IMG/VR virus record: IMGVR_UViG_3300046009_003881 | Location: 1 to 58,222 of that record | DNA from: a virus | Direction: 5' to 3' (one strand) | DNA length: 58,222 nucleotides | Shown: positions 1,877 to 16,432 of the stretch, piece by piece | Position numbering within the stretch: position 1 is the first letter of the stretch | How the letters are laid out: each line of letters opens with the position of its first letter | Notes under the pieces: generated by a model | Told to the model about the DNA's origin: nothing | Seen by the model: the letters and a program-made list of their open reading frames with translations, nothing else | Databases searched by the model: none | Position numbers and translations under genes: made by a program

Positions 1877-2494
1877 TTATTTTGTAAAGTTTAGTTTGAA
1901 GAATGCGAATGCTTGCTCAATCTCTTCGATTGTGTTCGTAGTGATTTGCTTCCCTTCTGAGTCTATTCTCAAAGAGACGTTTTTACCCATATCCAAAGCG
2001 CTCGCTCTGAATGAGAAGTTCATTATGTCGGATACCTTTTCTTTAACAGTGTTCTTGCTTTCGTCACCGTCACCGTCACCGTCACCTTCGCTTGTCTCTG
2101 CCTTGTTTCCATCAGCGAAGTCTAGCAGACCTTTGATTGACTTTTCCACACGTTTTCCCTCTGATTTTAGCTTGTCGCATTGGCTAATGAAGTCTTCCAC
2201 AAGCGCAGAGTTTTCTTCCAAGATTAAACCTGCATCCTTCATTCTGTGCAATTGTGCCTTTTCCCATCCGAAGATTGCCATCGAAAAGTCAGTTACTTTC
2301 CATTTAATACCTTCCGCTTTCAATTGCGCTTTGCCTTCATCAGATGAATACCAACGATATGCGCTGAGAACGTAGGGTGCTAACTCCAAACTCGCTTGAA
2401 ATTTCTTGTCTGATGCATTTGAGATTGCCTTTTGTAGCTTTTGAATTTTCGCAAGACCAAGTGTGTTTGCGATTGTTTTTGAAATGTTTGTCAT
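1877..2494 (-). CDS. Hypothetical protein, 205 aa, first coding gene of the leftward arm
   Basis: The protein is helix-rich and starts MTNISKTIANTLGLAKIQKL. Around residues 45-90 there is an aromatic segment (YRWYSS, FGWEKAQLHRM) that could be a compact helical domain, followed by an acidic low-complexity linker GDGDGDGDE near residues 136-144 encoded by a 6-bp tandem repeat. A final domain of about 50 residues follows. It is the first coding gene after the -7 box at 2899 and the structured RNA region, so it should be expressed very early. A regulatory or replication-associated role is a guess from position only; I recognise no family. Confidence 0.75.
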   Translation of the reverse strand: MTNISKTIANTLGLAKIQKLQKAISNASDKKFQASLELAPYVLSAYRWYSSDEGKAQLKAEGIKWKVTDFSMAIFGWEKAQLHRMKDAGLILEENSALVEDFISQCDKLKSEGKRVEKSIKGLLDFADGNKAETSEGDGDGDGDESKNTVKEKVSDIMNFSFRASALDMGKNVSLRIDSEGKQITTNTIEEIEQAFAFFKLNFTK

Positions 2495-2526
2495 TTGAAT
2501 AAAGTATTAAATTGTTATTGTATTGC

Positions 2527-2542
2527 GTCTCTTTAATGAGAC
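2527..2542 (-). repeat. Hairpin cassette, copy 7
   Basis: Minus-strand GTCTCATTAAAGAGAC has five stem pairs and a mismatched closing position. It lies directly downstream of the tRNA-like element rather than of a gene, and 32 nt before the ATG at 2494, a longer gap than in the other copies. Confidence 0.75.
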
Positions 2543-2549
2543 AGTTAGC

Positions 2550-2617
2550 GACAAGGAGTAGACTCGAACTACTCTACAGAATTATCGTCACAGATGCATC
2601 TGTTCTCCTATCTTGCC
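2550..2617 (-). ncRNA. tRNA-like fold without a proper D or anticodon arm
   Basis: On the minus strand GGCAAGA (2617-2611) can pair with CCTTGTC (2556-2550), six of seven positions including one G-U. Just inside the 3' strand is a perfect T-arm: stem AGTAG/CTACT with loop TTCGAGT (2557-2573). Between them lies one long arm (ACAGA..TCTGT or the palindrome ACAGATGCATCTGT) in place of separate D and anticodon arms, and no anticodon loop with U33 fits. No CCA is encoded. It could be a degenerate tRNA, a tmRNA-like end or a phage tRNA mimic, and the match may also be chance. Confidence 0.35.
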
Positions 2618-2861
2618 TAGGGTATGACTTTTTTGCGCATCACATCACCTATACTTGTCCTATACCAATATGTCAAAGAATTTCGCCTTTATACTCGTCG
2701 CGTTTCTGAGTAGTCATCTTATCGGAAGTAACACCCTTTCAGCAGTTAGCTACTTCTATGTGTAGGTTGATGACCTAGTCCTTTGTATGTATTTTGTCGG
2801 ATGCATACTCCCCGTCCGTTTAGCATAAGCAAGGCACATCGTTAACCTTTTAGCCTTTAGT

Positions 2862-3136
2862 GTTTCAGTGACGATTCACCTTCCCTTAAAAGACACGTCA
2901 AAGATATGTCAGTGATGCTTCATTGATACTATTTTTTTCATCTTTCTGTGCCCATTGTTTAACCACTTGTACCCAATAAAATGCATTCTGTGACCAAAGT
3001 TTAAGAAATGCTAAGATCCTTAGCAAAAAGAGACGGGCAAAAAAGCGAGTTTTTAGAGTAATGGCGCAAAAAGTTTGAGTTTATCCAAGGTCTACTACTG
3101 CCGTATCAGTGACGTATTTATGCTGTATCAGTGACG
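2862..3136 (+). repeat. Iteron-like repeats, consensus GTnTCAGTGACG
   Basis: Four copies of a 12-mer are at 2862-2873, 2906-2917 (ATGTCAGTGATG), 3103-3114 and 3125-3136. The last two start exactly 22 bp apart and the first two 44 bp apart, so paired copies face the same side of the helix. This is the pattern of initiator or repressor binding sites. No adjacent gene is a recognised iteron-binding initiator. Confidence 0.5.
2899..2906 (-). promoter_or_regulatory. Bacteroidota-type -7 box, leftward early promoter
   Basis: The minus strand reads TATCTTTG, matching TAnnTTTG. It faces the leftward arm, and no closer box to the first gene (start 2494) was seen, so it probably drives the early operon and the about 350-nt untranslated leader. 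I see no clear -33 TTTG. An iteron-like repeat at 2906-2917 touches the box, so a protein bound there could control it. Confidence 0.6.
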
Positions 3137-3210
3137 CATACACCCCCCTCATATGCTCGCCAGTTTTTATGCTAAAATTATTAGCACACAAAATTTGAGT
3201 GACAAGATTC

Positions 3211-3226
3211 GTCTCCTCGAAGAGAC
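3211..3226 (-). repeat. Hairpin cassette, copy 8 (upstream of the leftward promoter)
   Basis: In minus-strand RNA sense the stem is GUCUCU/GGAGAC with loop UCGA, including the U-G wobble. Unlike the other copies it is not between genes. It lies 6 nt from the parS-like palindrome and upstream of the 2899 box. Confidence 0.8.
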
Positions 3227-3231
3227 GGGAA

Positions 3232-3249
3232 TTGTTTCACGTGAAACAA
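3232..3249. promoter_or_regulatory. parS: parS-like perfect palindrome
   Basis: TTGTTTCACGTGAAACAA is an 18-bp perfect palindrome whose inner 16 bp (3233-3248) equal the canonical chromosomal ParB-binding site TGTTTCACGTGAAACA. No parA or parB gene is present in the window. Inference: the phage carries a site for the host chromosomal ParB, or for another CACGTG-type factor. Confidence 0.7.
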
Positions 3250-3250
3250 A

Positions 3251-3331
3251 ACGGGGAACGGCAGCAGCACAGAGAGACGGGCAAAGCGGAGACGGGGAAC
3301 GGCAGCGAAACGTTGACAGCAACAGAGACGG
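3251..3331 (+). repeat. Purine-rich repeat block (ACGGGGAACGGCAGC, GAGACGG, GCAGCAGCACAG)
   Basis: ACGGGGAACGGCAGC occurs at 3251-3265 and 3292-3306. GAGACGG occurs at 3222, 3274, 3289 and 3325, with a further copy at 3030. GCAGCAGCACAG-type triplets continue to about 3356. GAGACGG is also the 3' flank of most hairpin cassettes. The block sits between the parS-like site and the rightward promoter. Confidence 0.7.
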
Positions 3332-3484
3332 CAGCAGCACAGCAGCAGCACAGCAGCAAACGGAATCGCCAAAAAGTAGCAGAGAAATTTTGCTTTTCAC
3401 ACCCCCACCCTTTGATTAGGATCGCTTTCGGATTGGGGGTCGGTCGATATAAAACGCTATATAGCCCAACATCTAAATATGTCT

Positions 3485-3492
3485 TATATTTG
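3485..3492 (+). promoter_or_regulatory. Bacteroidota-type -7 box, rightward
   Basis: TATATTTG fits TAnnTTTG and ends 13 nt before the ATG at 3506. It is the first rightward promoter after the control region. It also shows that an in-frame ATG at 3479 lies upstream of the likely transcript start and cannot be used. Confidence 0.6.
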
Positions 3493-3505
3493 TAAAAACT
3501 CTACA

Positions 3506-3697
3506 ATGAACGGACTCAAAGTAATTAACGGCAGACTCATTAATGAGCGCCCAAATGGATTAACTGGCATTCAGGAAGCCGCTAGAAATAGAAAGGAAAT
3601 GAAGCGTCAGGAAAAGATTAGTATGTACTCAGATGCATTCGCTTTAGGTGATATGAAGGCTGAAGTACGTGAAATGGCTATGGGGATCATCTCCTAG
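3506..3697 (+). CDS. Small basic protein, 63 aa, first rightward gene
   Basis: It starts MNGLKVINGRLINERPNGLT and has a charged, helical centre (EAARNRKEMKRQEK). An upstream in-frame ATG at 3479 is rejected because it precedes the -7 box. The gene is monocistronic: it has its own promoter (3485) and is followed by a strong terminator (3728-3755). A small, independently transcribed gene at the arm boundary fits a regulator or host-takeover factor, but no family is recognised. Confidence 0.7.
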   Translation: MNGLKVINGRLINERPNGLTGIQEAARNRKEMKRQEKISMYSDAFALGDMKAEVREMAMGIIS

Positions 3698-3974: not shown

Positions 3975-5594
3975 ATGTCAGAACAGATGGGTTATTCTCC
4001 GAAGGACTTACACTTCGATGAATCGGCTAGAGAGAAACTTCTATCCGGTGTAGCAAAAATGTCTAAGGCGGTAAAGAGTACACTTGGTCCAAGTGGTAAC
4101 ACCGTCCTTATCGAATCACCAAATCACACGCACGGTATAACCGTAACCAAGGATGGAGTCACGGTGGCTAGGTCAATTGACTTGCTGGATCCTGTTGAGA
4201 ACCTTGCGGTTAAGATTATGAAGGAGGCTGCGGACCGAACGGCTACTAATGCCGGTGATGGTACAACGACTGCGATTGTCTTGACGGAGGCTCTTGTTAC
4301 AAACGGGGCGAAGTGGATTAGTAATGGATTGAACAGAACGCAGGTGCTGAGAGATATGGTGGAGGTGACGGGCTTAGTGGTGGACAATCTCAAGAAGCAA
4401 TCGATCAAGGTCAGCAACAAGACGCTGCTTGACGTGGCTACAATCTCTGCGAACAATGACAAGTCGATTGGTAAGATAATCTCGGACGTGTACCGCGAGG
4501 TGGGACGTAACGGTGTTGTCACTATAGAGCGATCTCAGAACGACGATACGTACGCTGAGACCACAACGGGAGTTAAGGTTGGGCGTGGCTATTCGTCACC
4601 GATGTTTATCAACGACCAGAAGAAGGACGAGTGTGTGTTTGAGGACGTGTTCGTGTTGGTATCGGATGCCGAGATACATAACGTCCTGCAGATCGAGAGC
4701 ATACTCAAGCCAATCATTCAGGAGGGGAAGAAGCTACTCATCATCGCTCCGTGTGGTGCGAACGTGTTGAACACCTTGGCTGCTAACGTGGTGAAAAATA
4801 AAATTAAGATCTGCGTCATCCAACCGCCATCCTTTGGCTATCGCCAGCACGAGCTGATGCACGACATCGCGGTGAGCGTTGGGGCAACGTACTTCTCGGA
4901 GAAGACCGGTGATGACTTGAGCATCATTAACTTCTCGGACCTAGGTCACGCTGCAAAGATCATCGTTGGGAAATCGGAGACGGTTGTCATCAAGTCCGAG
5001 CTGAAGAGCAAGGAGGACGAGATCAAGGAGCGAGTTGAGCAGATACGTGCGGCTTATGCGAACGCAAAGAAGAAAAGCGACAAGGACTTTTTGCTTGAGC
5101 GAATCGCCTCCCTGACGGGAGGGATCGGAGTGATCTACGTTGGTGGTAACACAGACCTTGAGCATAAGGAGCTATACGATAGGATTGACGATGCGGTGTG
5201 TGCGGTGCGTTCCGCTATCGAGGAGGGGATCCTTCCAGGCGGTGGCAAGGCACTTGTTAACACTGAGCTGTTGATACCGATCAAAGATACTGATAGCAAG
5301 GAGATGGCTGCTGCCAAGACAATTGTCCTCAATGCGGTACTCGAGCCGTGTAGACAGATCCTTGAAAACTCGGGGTATGACTTCGATACGGTCTATCCCT
5401 ATCTAGGAGATAAGCCACGACACGGGATGAACGTGAAGACCGGAGAGATGGGTGACCTAATTCAGATGGGGATCATTGACCCGTTGAAGGTTACACGTAG
5501 CGCGATTCAAAACGCAGTTAGCGTAGCCGTAACTATCCTGTCCACAAACGCGATCGTGACAATGGCTAGATCGTACGAGACAACAAATCTGTAA
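3975..5594 (+). CDS. groEL: GroEL-type chaperonin, 539 aa
   Basis: A full-length group I chaperonin subunit (E. coli GroEL is 548 aa) that should form an ATP-driven folding ring. Equatorial motifs are intact: TLGPSG at 36-41, TKDG at 58-61, GDGTTTA at 94-100 and GGG at 422-424. Asp60, Asp95 and Asp406 (in RIDDA) align with the E. coli ATPase residues Asp52, Asp87 and Asp398. The apical segment RGYSSPMF (204-211) keeps Tyr and Phe of the substrate/GroES groove but has Met for one Tyr. The Gly-Gly-Met tail is missing; the protein ends SYETTNL. The gene has its own promoter and is followed after 5 nt by groES. From about codon 80 it is visibly more GC-rich than its neighbours, hinting at separate origin. 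Likely role: folding of the capsid or other phage proteins. Confidence 0.95.
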   Translation: MSEQMGYSPKDLHFDESAREKLLSGVAKMSKAVKSTLGPSGNTVLIESPNHTHGITVTKDGVTVARSIDLLDPVENLAVKIMKEAADRTATNAGDGTTTAIVLTEALVTNGAKWISNGLNRTQVLRDMVEVTGLVVDNLKKQSIKVSNKTLLDVATISANNDKSIGKIISDVYREVGRNGVVTIERSQNDDTYAETTTGVKVGRGYSSPMFINDQKKDECVFEDVFVLVSDAEIHNVLQIESILKPIIQEGKKLLIIAPCGANVLNTLAANVVKNKIKICVIQPPSFGYRQHELMHDIAVSVGATYFSEKTGDDLSIINFSDLGHAAKIIVGKSETVVIKSELKSKEDEIKERVEQIRAAYANAKKKSDKDFLLERIASLTGGIGVIYVGGNTDLEHKELYDRIDDAVCAVRSAIEEGILPGGGKALVNTELLIPIKDTDSKEMAAAKTIVLNAVLEPCRQILENSGYDFDTVYPYLGDKPRHGMNVKTGEMGDLIQMGIIDPLKVTRSAIQNAVSVAVTILSTNAIVTMARSYETTNL

Positions 5595-13115: not shown

Positions 13116-13343
13116 TTGGCTCACATAAGGAAAATATCAATAGGTTCTGACTACAAGAACGCAATGCACTACGTTGTTGGTCAGAAGATAATTGGTGATT
13201 CTAATGAGATCCACGAGATAAATTATAACGAGCAGAAGGAATCCTATAGGATCTATGCTATGAATGAAAAGCAAGAGGTTGCTCTGTGGAAAGAGTTTAC
13301 CAATAGAGTTCCAATTTCAATTGAATATAATATCGAATTTTAA
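13116..13343 (+). CDS. Conserved small phage protein, 75 aa, TTG start
   Basis: The only plausible start is TTG at 13116. The product (MAHIRKISIGSDYKNAMHYV, then VGQKI) ends VPISIEYNIEF. The pattern SIGxDYKxAMHYVVGQxV...EIHxI and a C-terminal SxEYNIxF is one I know from small conserved proteins next to packaging genes in aquatic phages. The function is unknown. Its stop abuts the next ATG. Confidence 0.65.
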   Translation: MAHIRKISIGSDYKNAMHYVVGQKIIGDSNEIHEINYNEQKESYRIYAMNEKQEVALWKEFTNRVPISIEYNIEF

Positions 13344-13906
13344 TGAAGTCTCCATTCTATTTCATTGCAAAGCCAATGGATGGAAAGAGGTACAACAACA
13401 CTAAGGATGTCGGTGGGATCGAGTTCATCACCAGCACATCAGAGGAAGATCATAGGTTTTCAAATAGACTAGCTGTTGTTGAGGCTCTTCCAATCGGCTA
13501 TACCGGTCCCATAAAGCAAGGGGACATTCTTCTTGTACATCACAATACCTTTAAGTACTACAACGATATGAAGGGAAGGCAGCGAAGCGGCAAGTCCTTC
13601 TTTCGGGATGACCTATTCTTTATTGAACAGGACCAGTTCTTTATGTACTTCAATGACAACGGATGGAACGCTTACGATAGGTACTGTTTTGTTGAGCCAA
13701 TCGAGGCAAGGGATTCCTACATAAAGAAGATGACAACCGAGGAGCCATTGATGGGGCGTATGGTTTATTCAAACCCATACCTAGAGTCTCAGGGCGTTGC
13801 CAGCGGATCTATTGTTTGCTTCAAACCCGAAAGCGAGTACACTTTTATTGTCGATGGCAAGAAGATGTACCGAATGTTTGATCATCAAATAACGATGGTG
13901 CTATGA
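13343..13906 (+). CDS. GroES-like duplicated-barrel protein, 187 aa
   Basis: Residues about 23-52 (VGGIEFITSTSEEDHRFSNR then LAVVEALPIG) resemble the GroES mobile loop and following strand (GGIVL...RGEVLAVG). The C-terminal 50 residues (GRMVYSN..., GSIVCFKPES, IVDGKKMY, HQITMVL) resemble the second half of GroES. The protein therefore looks like two GroES-type barrels in tandem, twice the normal length. It lies directly upstream of the putative small terminase and TerL genes. It may be a specialised co-chaperonin or a virion protein that has kept the fold. It overlaps the next gene by 4 nt. Confidence 0.5.
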   Translation: MKSPFYFIAKPMDGKRYNNTKDVGGIEFITSTSEEDHRFSNRLAVVEALPIGYTGPIKQGDILLVHHNTFKYYNDMKGRQRSGKSFFRDDLFFIEQDQFFMYFNDNGWNAYDRYCFVEPIEARDSYIKKMTTEEPLMGRMVYSNPYLESQGVASGSIVCFKPESEYTFIVDGKKMYRMFDHQITMVL

Positions 13907-14238
13907 GCTACAACATAGATACAAAGAGAAGGATCATAGAGGCTGGTAAGAAGGCTATCGACGAACTTGTAAAGATTGCCGAGGACAAGGTATCCTTGGG
14001 AGGAGTTCAAGCTGATGATGATGATGGTGGGGTTACAGCTGATAAGCTAAAGAATGTAGCAATGACAAAGAAGATAGCCATCTTCGATGCGTTTGAAATA
14101 CTATCCAAGATCGAACAGGAAGAGGAGTCAATTAGAATAAGTCAATCATCCACGGGCGCAAGCAAGGTGGACAATACACAAGGATTTGCGGAAAGAAACT
14201 CAAGAAAGCCTGTACAGGGTTCTAGTAGACTACGTTGA
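13903..14238 (+). CDS. Putative small terminase subunit or packaging accessory, 111 aa
   Basis: A helical N-terminal half (TKRRIIEAGKKAIDELVKIA), an acidic Asp/Gly loop, a second long helix (KKIAIFDAFEILSKIEQEEE) and a disordered Ser/Arg-rich tail. Its place immediately before the large terminase gene and its helix-loop-helix layout suit a small terminase subunit, but I see no clear DNA-binding motif. The last 53 nt overlap the start of terL in another frame, so the two are coupled. Confidence 0.5.
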   Translation: MSYNIDTKRRIIEAGKKAIDELVKIAEDKVSLGGVQADDDDGGVTADKLKNVAMTKKIAIFDAFEILSKIEQEEESIRISQSSTGASKVDNTQGFAERNSRKPVQGSSRLR

Positions 14239-16432
14239 TAACAAGACGCTATTAAAAAAGAACTCGAATAAAACTTGGTACTATGGGTATAGCGAGGCGC
14301 ACGACCTTGTCATAATATCTAAGACCGGTCAGATAGGTGACATCTACGAAATCGAAGGACTAAAGATTGCACTTCCTCCTGCCCCAACAAAAGTAATGTC
14401 GAGAAGCGCAAAGAAGCCTGATCAGCATTGGGAAAGAAAGGAATGCCCGTCAGAACTTGCCAAGATCCAATCTATATTTCAATGGAACGATATGCCAATT
14501 CCGTTTAAGGAGAAGTGGATCGATTACATTGAGGAGGAGTTCAGACGAAGGGAAGAAGGAATGTTCTTTATGAACAATGGAGAAAAGACTTACATCAGTG
14601 GTAGCCACTATATGTATCTACAGTGGTCAAGTATAGACATTGGATACCCAGACTTTCGTGAAGCAAACAGAATCTTTTGGATTTTTTGGGAAGCTTGCAA
14701 GGCAGACCCTAGGTCATTTGGAATAGACTACCTGAAGATAAGACGTTCAGGATTTTCCTTTATGGCTTCGGCAGAGGGCGTGAATACCGGAACAATATCC
14801 AAGGACTCAAGGATCGGCATACTATCGAAGACGGGACCTGATGCTAAGAAGATGTTTACCGACAAGGTTGTTCCTATCAATAGCAAGTACCCATTCTTCT
14901 TTAAGCCGATAATGGACGGTATGGACAAGCCTAAGACAGAGCTTGCCTATAGGATGCCTGCCTCAAAGATCACCAAGAAGAATATGACAACGATATCATC
15001 AAACGATATCGAGGGATTGAATACTACCATTGACTGGAAGAACACCGAGGACAACTCGTACGATGGTGAAAAACTAATTCTACTTATCCACGATGAGAGT
15101 GGTAAGTGGGTTAAGCCCGTGAACATCTTGAACAACTGGCGAGTTACCAAGACCTGCTTAAGACTTGGTAGCAAGATCATTGGAAAGTGTATGATGGGTT
15201 CAACATCGAACGCACTGAACAAGGGTGGTGACAACTTCAAAAAACTATTCGAGGACTCTGATCCAACCAAGCGAAACGCAAATGGTCAGACCAAGAGTGG
15301 AATGTACGGACTATTCATTCCTATGGAGTGGAACCTAGAAGGATTCATTGATGTCTATGGGCATCCCGTATTCAGAAAGCCTGCTCAACCAATCAAAGGA
15401 ATAGATGGAGCAATGATCTCCAATGGCGCTATAGACTATTGGGAGAACGAGGTTGATTCGTTAAAGAGTGATCCTGATGCGCTCAATGAATTTTACAGAC
15501 AGTTCCCTAGGACTACATCACACGCATTTAGGGATGAGAGCAAGGAGTCCTTGTTTGATCTGACCAAGATCTATCAGCAGATAGACTACAATGACGCTAT
15601 GATTCAAGAGCATTACCTGACAAGAGGATCATTTAGTTGGAAGGACGGAATCAAGGATACCAAGGTTATCTTTACTCCCGACAAAAGGGGTAGGTTCCTA
15701 GTCAGCTGGTTGCCGCCTGCTCAATTACAGAATAGAGTTATAAATGCTAATGGTAGAAAATTACCAGGCAACGAACACATTGGGTCATTCGGATGTGACC
15801 CATATGATATCTCCGCTGTTGTTGGTGGAAGGGGGTCGAACGGATCCCTACACGGAATGACTAAGTACCATATGGACGAGGCTCCGGTAAACGAGTTTTT
15901 TCTTGAGTACATTGCTAGACCACAGACCGCTGAGATATTCTTTGAGGACGTGCTTATGGCTTGTGTGTTTTATGGGATGCCGATACTTGCGGAGAACAAT
16001 AAGCCAAGGCTACTGTACCACTTTAAGAACAGAGGCTATAGAGGGTTCTCTATGAACAGACCCGATAAGGTGTACGCTAAACTTACTGCTACTGAGAAAG
16101 AACTAGGCGGTATCCCGAATACATCGGAGGACGTTAAGCAGTCTCACGCCTCAGCAATCGAGAGCTATATCATAAAGCACGTTGGATATGACGAGACAGG
16201 AATGCATCGCGCTCCTGACGTTGTAGGAAGTATGCCGTTCATTAGAACGCTAGAGGATTGGGCTAAGTTCAACATTAATGATCGAACAAAATTTGACGCA
16301 TCTATCAGTTCGGGATTAGTTATAATGGCTAATCAGAAACATCTCTATGTGCCTGAGAAGCAACAATCAAAAATAAGCGTTAAATTTGCGACATATAGTA
16401 ATAGTGGAACATCAAGCCAAAGAATTAGATGA
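14186..16432 (+). CDS. terL: Terminase large subunit, 748 aa
   Basis: The ATPase-nuclease motor that packages DNA into the prohead. A degenerate Walker A region is at about 184-191 (KIRRSGFS), with GILSKTGPDA downstream. Walker B is IHDESGKW at 301-308, with the catalytic acid Glu304. The RNase H-like nuclease domain begins around GSFGCDPYDIS (533-543), where Asp538 is a likely metal ligand. The first 90 residues are an extra N-terminal domain, and the length is above average for TerL. It resembles the terminases of crAss-like and environmental phages. The start overlaps the preceding gene by 53 nt; the stop overlaps the portal start by 4 nt. Confidence 0.85.
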   Translation: MRKETQESLYRVLVDYVDNKTLLKKNSNKTWYYGYSEAHDLVIISKTGQIGDIYEIEGLKIALPPAPTKVMSRSAKKPDQHWERKECPSELAKIQSIFQWNDMPIPFKEKWIDYIEEEFRRREEGMFFMNNGEKTYISGSHYMYLQWSSIDIGYPDFREANRIFWIFWEACKADPRSFGIDYLKIRRSGFSFMASAEGVNTGTISKDSRIGILSKTGPDAKKMFTDKVVPINSKYPFFFKPIMDGMDKPKTELAYRMPASKITKKNMTTISSNDIEGLNTTIDWKNTEDNSYDGEKLILLIHDESGKWVKPVNILNNWRVTKTCLRLGSKIIGKCMMGSTSNALNKGGDNFKKLFEDSDPTKRNANGQTKSGMYGLFIPMEWNLEGFIDVYGHPVFRKPAQPIKGIDGAMISNGAIDYWENEVDSLKSDPDALNEFYRQFPRTTSHAFRDESKESLFDLTKIYQQIDYNDAMIQEHYLTRGSFSWKDGIKDTKVIFTPDKRGRFLVSWLPPAQLQNRVINANGRKLPGNEHIGSFGCDPYDISAVVGGRGSNGSLHGMTKYHMDEAPVNEFFLEYIARPQTAEIFFEDVLMACVFYGMPILAENNKPRLLYHFKNRGYRGFSMNRPDKVYAKLTATEKELGGIPNTSEDVKQSHASAIESYIIKHVGYDETGMHRAPDVVGSMPFIRTLEDWAKFNINDRTKFDASISSGLVIMANQKHLYVPEKQQSKISVKFATYSNSGTSSQRIR

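Follow-up and report, generated by a model that had tools for sequence, protein, structure and literature searches.

Phages and other mobile DNA that carry parS without encoding ParB have been described in two settings. In Bacillus-type spore biology, as reported for phage phi29, the host Spo0J/ParB traps the phage genome in the spore (PMC9437464, describing Meijer et al. 2005, EMBO J). The element SGI1 carries parS mimics and no ParB, and it is partitioned by the ParABS system of the IncC plasmid, as supported by EMSA and stability data (PMC10954446). The chromosomal parS consensus with which such sites can be compared is that of Livny et al. 2007, as cited in PMC10197239. The concept of a borrowed parS is already known from phi29 and SGI1, and the phage of our study adds another case. 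We found no prior description of it, either in phages of Bacteroidota or as a trait of phages in general; most subscription journals were outside the search, so this is weak evidence of absence.

The phage genome and its parS palindrome

The window, i.e. the whole stretch of viral DNA that we analysed (58,222 nucleotides), ends in 126 nt that repeat its start from base 4, which makes a complete genome probable. The large terminase (14186..16432, plus strand), together with the portal and virion proteins, served to place the phage among Bacteroidota podoviruses: the terminase search grouped it with MW202828 (75% identity) and, at a greater distance, with Flavobacterium elemo, Cellulophaga and Tenacibaculum phages. 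It belongs to the podoviruses of Cellulophaga and of the "elemo" type of Flavobacterium. Since its kin infect Flavobacterium, Cellulophaga and Tenacibaculum, the Bacteroidota host proposed in the earlier note is likely. Host identification through the terminase in GTDB genomes was given up, as there were 6 matches to a related terminase, 3 of them in Bacteroidota MAGs and the others probably mis-binned.

The phage encodes a GroEL-like chaperonin (3975..5594, plus strand), portal and virion proteins, a DNA methyltransferase, a helicase, a primase-like protein, an exonuclease and a Sak-like annealing protein. A 187-aa gene (13343..13906, plus strand; phrog_13932) specifies a second GroES-like protein, besides the GroES that follows GroEL. 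No integrase or partition protein was detected among the 40 phage proteins scanned with PHROGs, and nothing in this scanned set was recognised as the product of a lysogeny gene. ParB (PF02195) and ParA (PF13614) had no match in the six frames of the window, while both profiles matched most control genomes.

The site itself is an 18-bp perfect palindrome, TTGTTTCACGTGAAACAA (3232..3249), which equals its own reverse complement and is therefore given no strand. Its inner 16 bp (3233-3248) match the canonical parS TGTTTCACGTGAAACA at 16 out of 16 bases. All other perfect palindromes of the window are shorter, and it is the only copy of parS in the 58 kb when up to 3 mismatches are allowed; it has 0 mismatches, and the shuffled window contained a mean of 0.30 parS-like sites at the same threshold of at most 3 mismatches. 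The number of perfect 18-bp palindromes of any sequence expected by chance in the window is 0.27, against about 2e-5 for the exact parS 16-mer in 58 kb at the window composition, so it is the parS identity, not the palindrome, that is surprising. The earlier note had described a perfect canonical parS, very unlikely by chance, in a phage with neither ParA nor ParB; all three statements were borne out, the last one for the two Pfam profiles named above. We regard the sequence as a real parS-class site, not a product of chance, and most likely a site for the host ParB.

The palindrome is located in a control region of approximately 1 kb (2495..3506), between a divergent early block (minus strand) and a late block (plus strand). 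This region has no recognisable genes and is partly filled by GAGACGG and CAGCAGCA repeats. Its left border is the first gene of the minus-strand block (1877..2494, minus strand; 205 aa, unknown function), which is conserved among relatives at 25-37% identity. The right border is the small gene that opens the plus-strand block (3507..3697, plus strand; 63 aa from its probable start, the ATG at 3507), and a homologue of this gene was found near the parS of locus L317. Just upstream of this ATG and about 250 bp from the parS site there is a putative promoter, TATATTTG (3485..3492, plus strand), proposed from its match to the Bacteroidota -7 consensus TAnnTTTG.

Other elements of the control region were also recorded. 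One of the scattered copies of a GTCTC..GAGAC hairpin repeat (3211..3227) ends 4 bp before the palindrome and is probably an element separate from it. This hairpin of about 17 bp was present in 12 copies (at 117, 642, 855, 1690, 1859, 2527, 3211, 43644, 54227, 56034, 56344 and 57085), mainly in early intergenic gaps, and its 3' arm, which reads AAGGAGAC on the minus strand, resembles a ribosome-binding site that a hairpin closes off immediately ahead of a start codon. A tRNA T-arm-like stretch, AGTAGTTCGAGTCTACT (window 2550-2580, minus strand), was called by neither ARAGORN nor Rfam. A structured RNA in the control region was rejected, as no Rfam family exceeded the threshold and positions 2540-2950 folded no better than shuffles.

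The site class in relatives and in Bacteroidota genomes

The site is also present in a contig that is identical to the window over 10,351 bp and represents the same virus. The relatives at 65-77% protein identity have no site at the corresponding place, and their control regions are not alignable. With regard to the refuting condition of the earlier note, absence of the palindrome from close relatives, the site came through only by half; because the sole alignable control region belongs to the same virus, we dropped conservation of the 3232-3249 site as an argument.

We then counted the site class GTTYCACGTGRAAC in 84 records of relatives (2.84 Mb). Elsewhere in these genomes, 12 sites were detected in 8 of the 84 records, against 0.03 expected, and the reversed pattern gave 0. 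Four of the 8 site-bearing records have two sites each, and ParB was found in none of the 8. Among 1,260 half-site permutations searched in the fetched loci of the relatives, parS had the most distinct locations (4), while 1,242 permutations had none. The sites were placed in the 3' end of groEL, in the groEL-groES gap, just upstream of groEL, within terL, within the 187-aa gene and near a tail-fibre gene. Several relatives have parS inside the 187-aa gene, and the window's copy of this gene has none. At one position of this gene the codons TCC ACG TGG AAC are common to several relatives, and parS arises if the preceding codon ends in GT; these sites were discounted, because they are partly explained by the inherited codon string. 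Peptide and codon ancestry contributes to some of the coding matches among relatives. A different perfect palindrome of 18 bp, AATGTCAATATTGACATT, was found in four relatives (L229:4551, L231:4551, L240:4227 and L224:1195), approximately 450 bp upstream of groEL; it is operator-like and occurs in imperfect form in L234 and L250.

Approximately 90% of the relatives are without a site, and parS was absent in all 9 sampled isolates of the elemo, Cellulophaga and Tenacibaculum phages, which indicates that the function would be dispensable. The presence of host-type parS elsewhere in a minority of relatives supports the use of host ParB.

The earlier note had asked for a comparison with the parS of candidate Bacteroidota hosts, and the phage site is of the parS class found in Bacteroidota genomes. 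We used 149 genomes of the class to which the Bacteroidota MAG with a related terminase belongs (taken as Bacteroidia), which is the probable host class. The GTTYCACGTGRAAC pattern was present in 130 of them (reversed control, 6) and the exact 16-mer in 32 (reversed control, 0). Usually there were two sites per genome, close together. A canonical ParB was encoded in all 15 site-bearing Bacteroidota genomes tested; one of these proteins matched solved structures of ParB, Spo0J and Noc, and an alignment with a solved ParB was obtained for its helix-turn-helix region. The proposal that parS adjoins parAB in Bacteroidota had no support, since sites and parB were on separate contigs in the genomes checked.

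Orphan parS sites in other phages

Sites of the parS type were also found in phages of other hosts. There are four GTTTCACGTGGAAC sites in phi29, one parS site each in Listeria phage A511 and Enterococcus phage Athos, three in Lactobacillus phage Bromius and two in a microvirus. The inovirus 'bajarodino virus 3' (PQ006178.1, locus L309) has six GTTTCACGTGAAAC sites in 6,183 bp, and several related inoviruses match too. PF02195 was matched in none of phi29, A511, Bromius, Athos, the microvirus and the inovirus. Similarly, 46 of 50 IMG/VR records having the exact 16-mer showed no ParB match.

A doubled 18-mer query recovered 215 phage records, versus 17 for the reversed query. In raw exact matches to IMG/VR, parS was very frequent among the matches listed, the reversed control gave 1 and a further permuted palindrome gave 33. 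We dropped the raw IMG/VR counts as proof of enrichment, because one permuted palindrome was also very frequent among the matches listed. This control palindrome, TGTTCTACGTAGAACA, is very frequent in viral contigs (L348-L467), with 75 out of 120 belonging to one flank family among the matches listed, and it may be a functional site itself or a conserved coding stretch. After masking of the site, independent flank contexts among the IMG/VR matches listed amounted to 96/120 for parS, and to 32/120 and 4/33 for the controls; we treat these counts as supportive only. At least two sites of the parS class were present in 26 of the 120 parS stretches among the matches listed.

These phages (Bacteroidota podoviruses, Listeria and Lactobacillus herelleviruses, phi29-like phages, a microvirus and inoviruses) raise the possibility, which we put forward tentatively and at less than even chances, that lytic and chronic phages of several phyla have recurrently borrowed the host centromere. 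Orphan parS would then have originated independently, and host ParABS would position or retain phage genomes in non-sporulating hosts too. We consider the breadth of orphan parS among phages the more interesting part of this work; parS is short and exactly defined. If ParB loads on such genomes, the bacterial segregation machinery would carry these phages as its cargo, and this, if true, could explain carrier states and the inheritance of phage DNA without lysogeny genes.

Explanations of the site and comparison with known systems

The explanation that we favour, somewhat above even chances, is that 3232-3249 is a genuine parS that loads host chromosomal ParB-CTP clamps onto the phage genome, i.e. 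a borrowed centromere. It is based on the exact 16/16 match, the lack of phage ParA and ParB, the presence of the class in Bacteroidota genomes and its recurrence in relatives devoid of ParB. We infer that 3232-3249 would be the nucleation point for host ParB, which would then close and slide along the neighbouring kilobases, and that the host ParA/ParB (possibly SMC) machinery would take the phage DNA as its cargo. The phage may in this way gain positioning and inheritance of its DNA in slow-growing or carrier cells without a partition system of its own. Phi29, which has four sites and no ParB and relies on host Spo0J as reported, serves as a positive control. Points against a borrowed centromere are the single site, the lack of a lysogeny gene among the scanned proteins, the siteless majority of relatives, the alignment of the control region with the identical virus only and the part of ancestry in some coding matches of relatives. 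The overall proposal of the earlier note was supported in part: the exact site, the missing ParA and ParB, the likely Bacteroidota host and the Bacteroidota class of parS all stood, while the site was absent at that position in relatives at 65-77% protein identity.

The location between divergent blocks, at some 250 bp from the Bacteroidota-type promoter match, would also suit a local role, in which ParB spreads from parS, silences the control-region promoters or sets their timing, and ties the early/late choice to host physiology. ParB of Pseudomonas aeruginosa at parS3/parS4 represses neighbouring genes (PMC5521831), and such ParB-dependent repression makes silencing conceivable here. We nevertheless find this role unlikely, since most sites of relatives fall in groEL, in terL or in late-gene regions and their position is unconstrained, unlike that of an operator; a genome-level role suits sites in or near groEL, terL, the 187-aa gene and the tail-fibre gene better than control of a single promoter. 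Scattered positions together with one or two sites per genome, as in the host chromosome, likewise speak for a genome-level role and less for an operator or for a decoy with many copies. In the decoy explanation, replicated phage genomes would titrate ParB off the two sites that the chromosome usually has and would interfere with segregation or division of the host. Many phage copies could indeed compete with the approximately two sites that most genomes of the probable host class have, and the parS mimics of SGI1 displace the helper plasmid IncC (PMC10954446); however, a decoy is expected to have many sites and the phage has one, and mis-segregation would presumably bring little gain to a lytic phage, which makes this explanation improbable.

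Two further explanations dispense with host ParB. The palindrome could be an operator bound by a phage-encoded regulator, its match to parS being coincidental, and the different palindrome AATGTCAATATTGACATT upstream of groEL in relatives illustrates that operator-like palindromes can occur in such regions. The probability that a random 16-bp palindrome is identical to parS is only about 1.5e-5 (4^-8), and the relatives show recurrent parS, first of the 1,260 permutations, and no drifting palindrome, so we consider an operator very improbable. A chance occurrence or neutral remnant without function would agree with the lack of the site in most relatives, with the alignment of the control region to the same virus only, and with the unclean raw IMG/VR counts, in which a control palindrome was also very frequent among the matches listed. 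Against this stand the 2e-5 sites expected in the window and the 0.03 expected versus 12 seen in 2.84 Mb of relatives, and we give a functionless site little credence.

Compared with the known systems, the borrowed centromere that we favour differs from the phages with their own ParABS, such as P1 and the mycobacterial extrachromosomal prophages: a centromere-like site on phage DNA is shared, but the ParA and ParB genes that a phage-encoded system requires are missing from the window phage. SGI1 is similar in being a mobile element with parS and without ParB; it is, however, an integrative element that uses a plasmid system and the helper protein Sci, whereas here a phage and a chromosomal system would be involved. 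The window phage shares its exact 16-bp sequence with the chromosomal parS of bacteria, and the same class is found in Bacteroidota genomes, including the probable host group, but its copy is single and on a phage. Finally, phi29 is, like the window phage, virulent, without its own ParB and in possession of host-type parS. Several sites per genome are a feature of phi29 that is perhaps inessential, as there is one here and one or two in the site-bearing relatives. Phi29 differs in its spore-forming host, its coupling to Spo0A and its four sites, whereas the window phage has a likely non-sporulating Bacteroidota host and a single, fully symmetric site in its control region.
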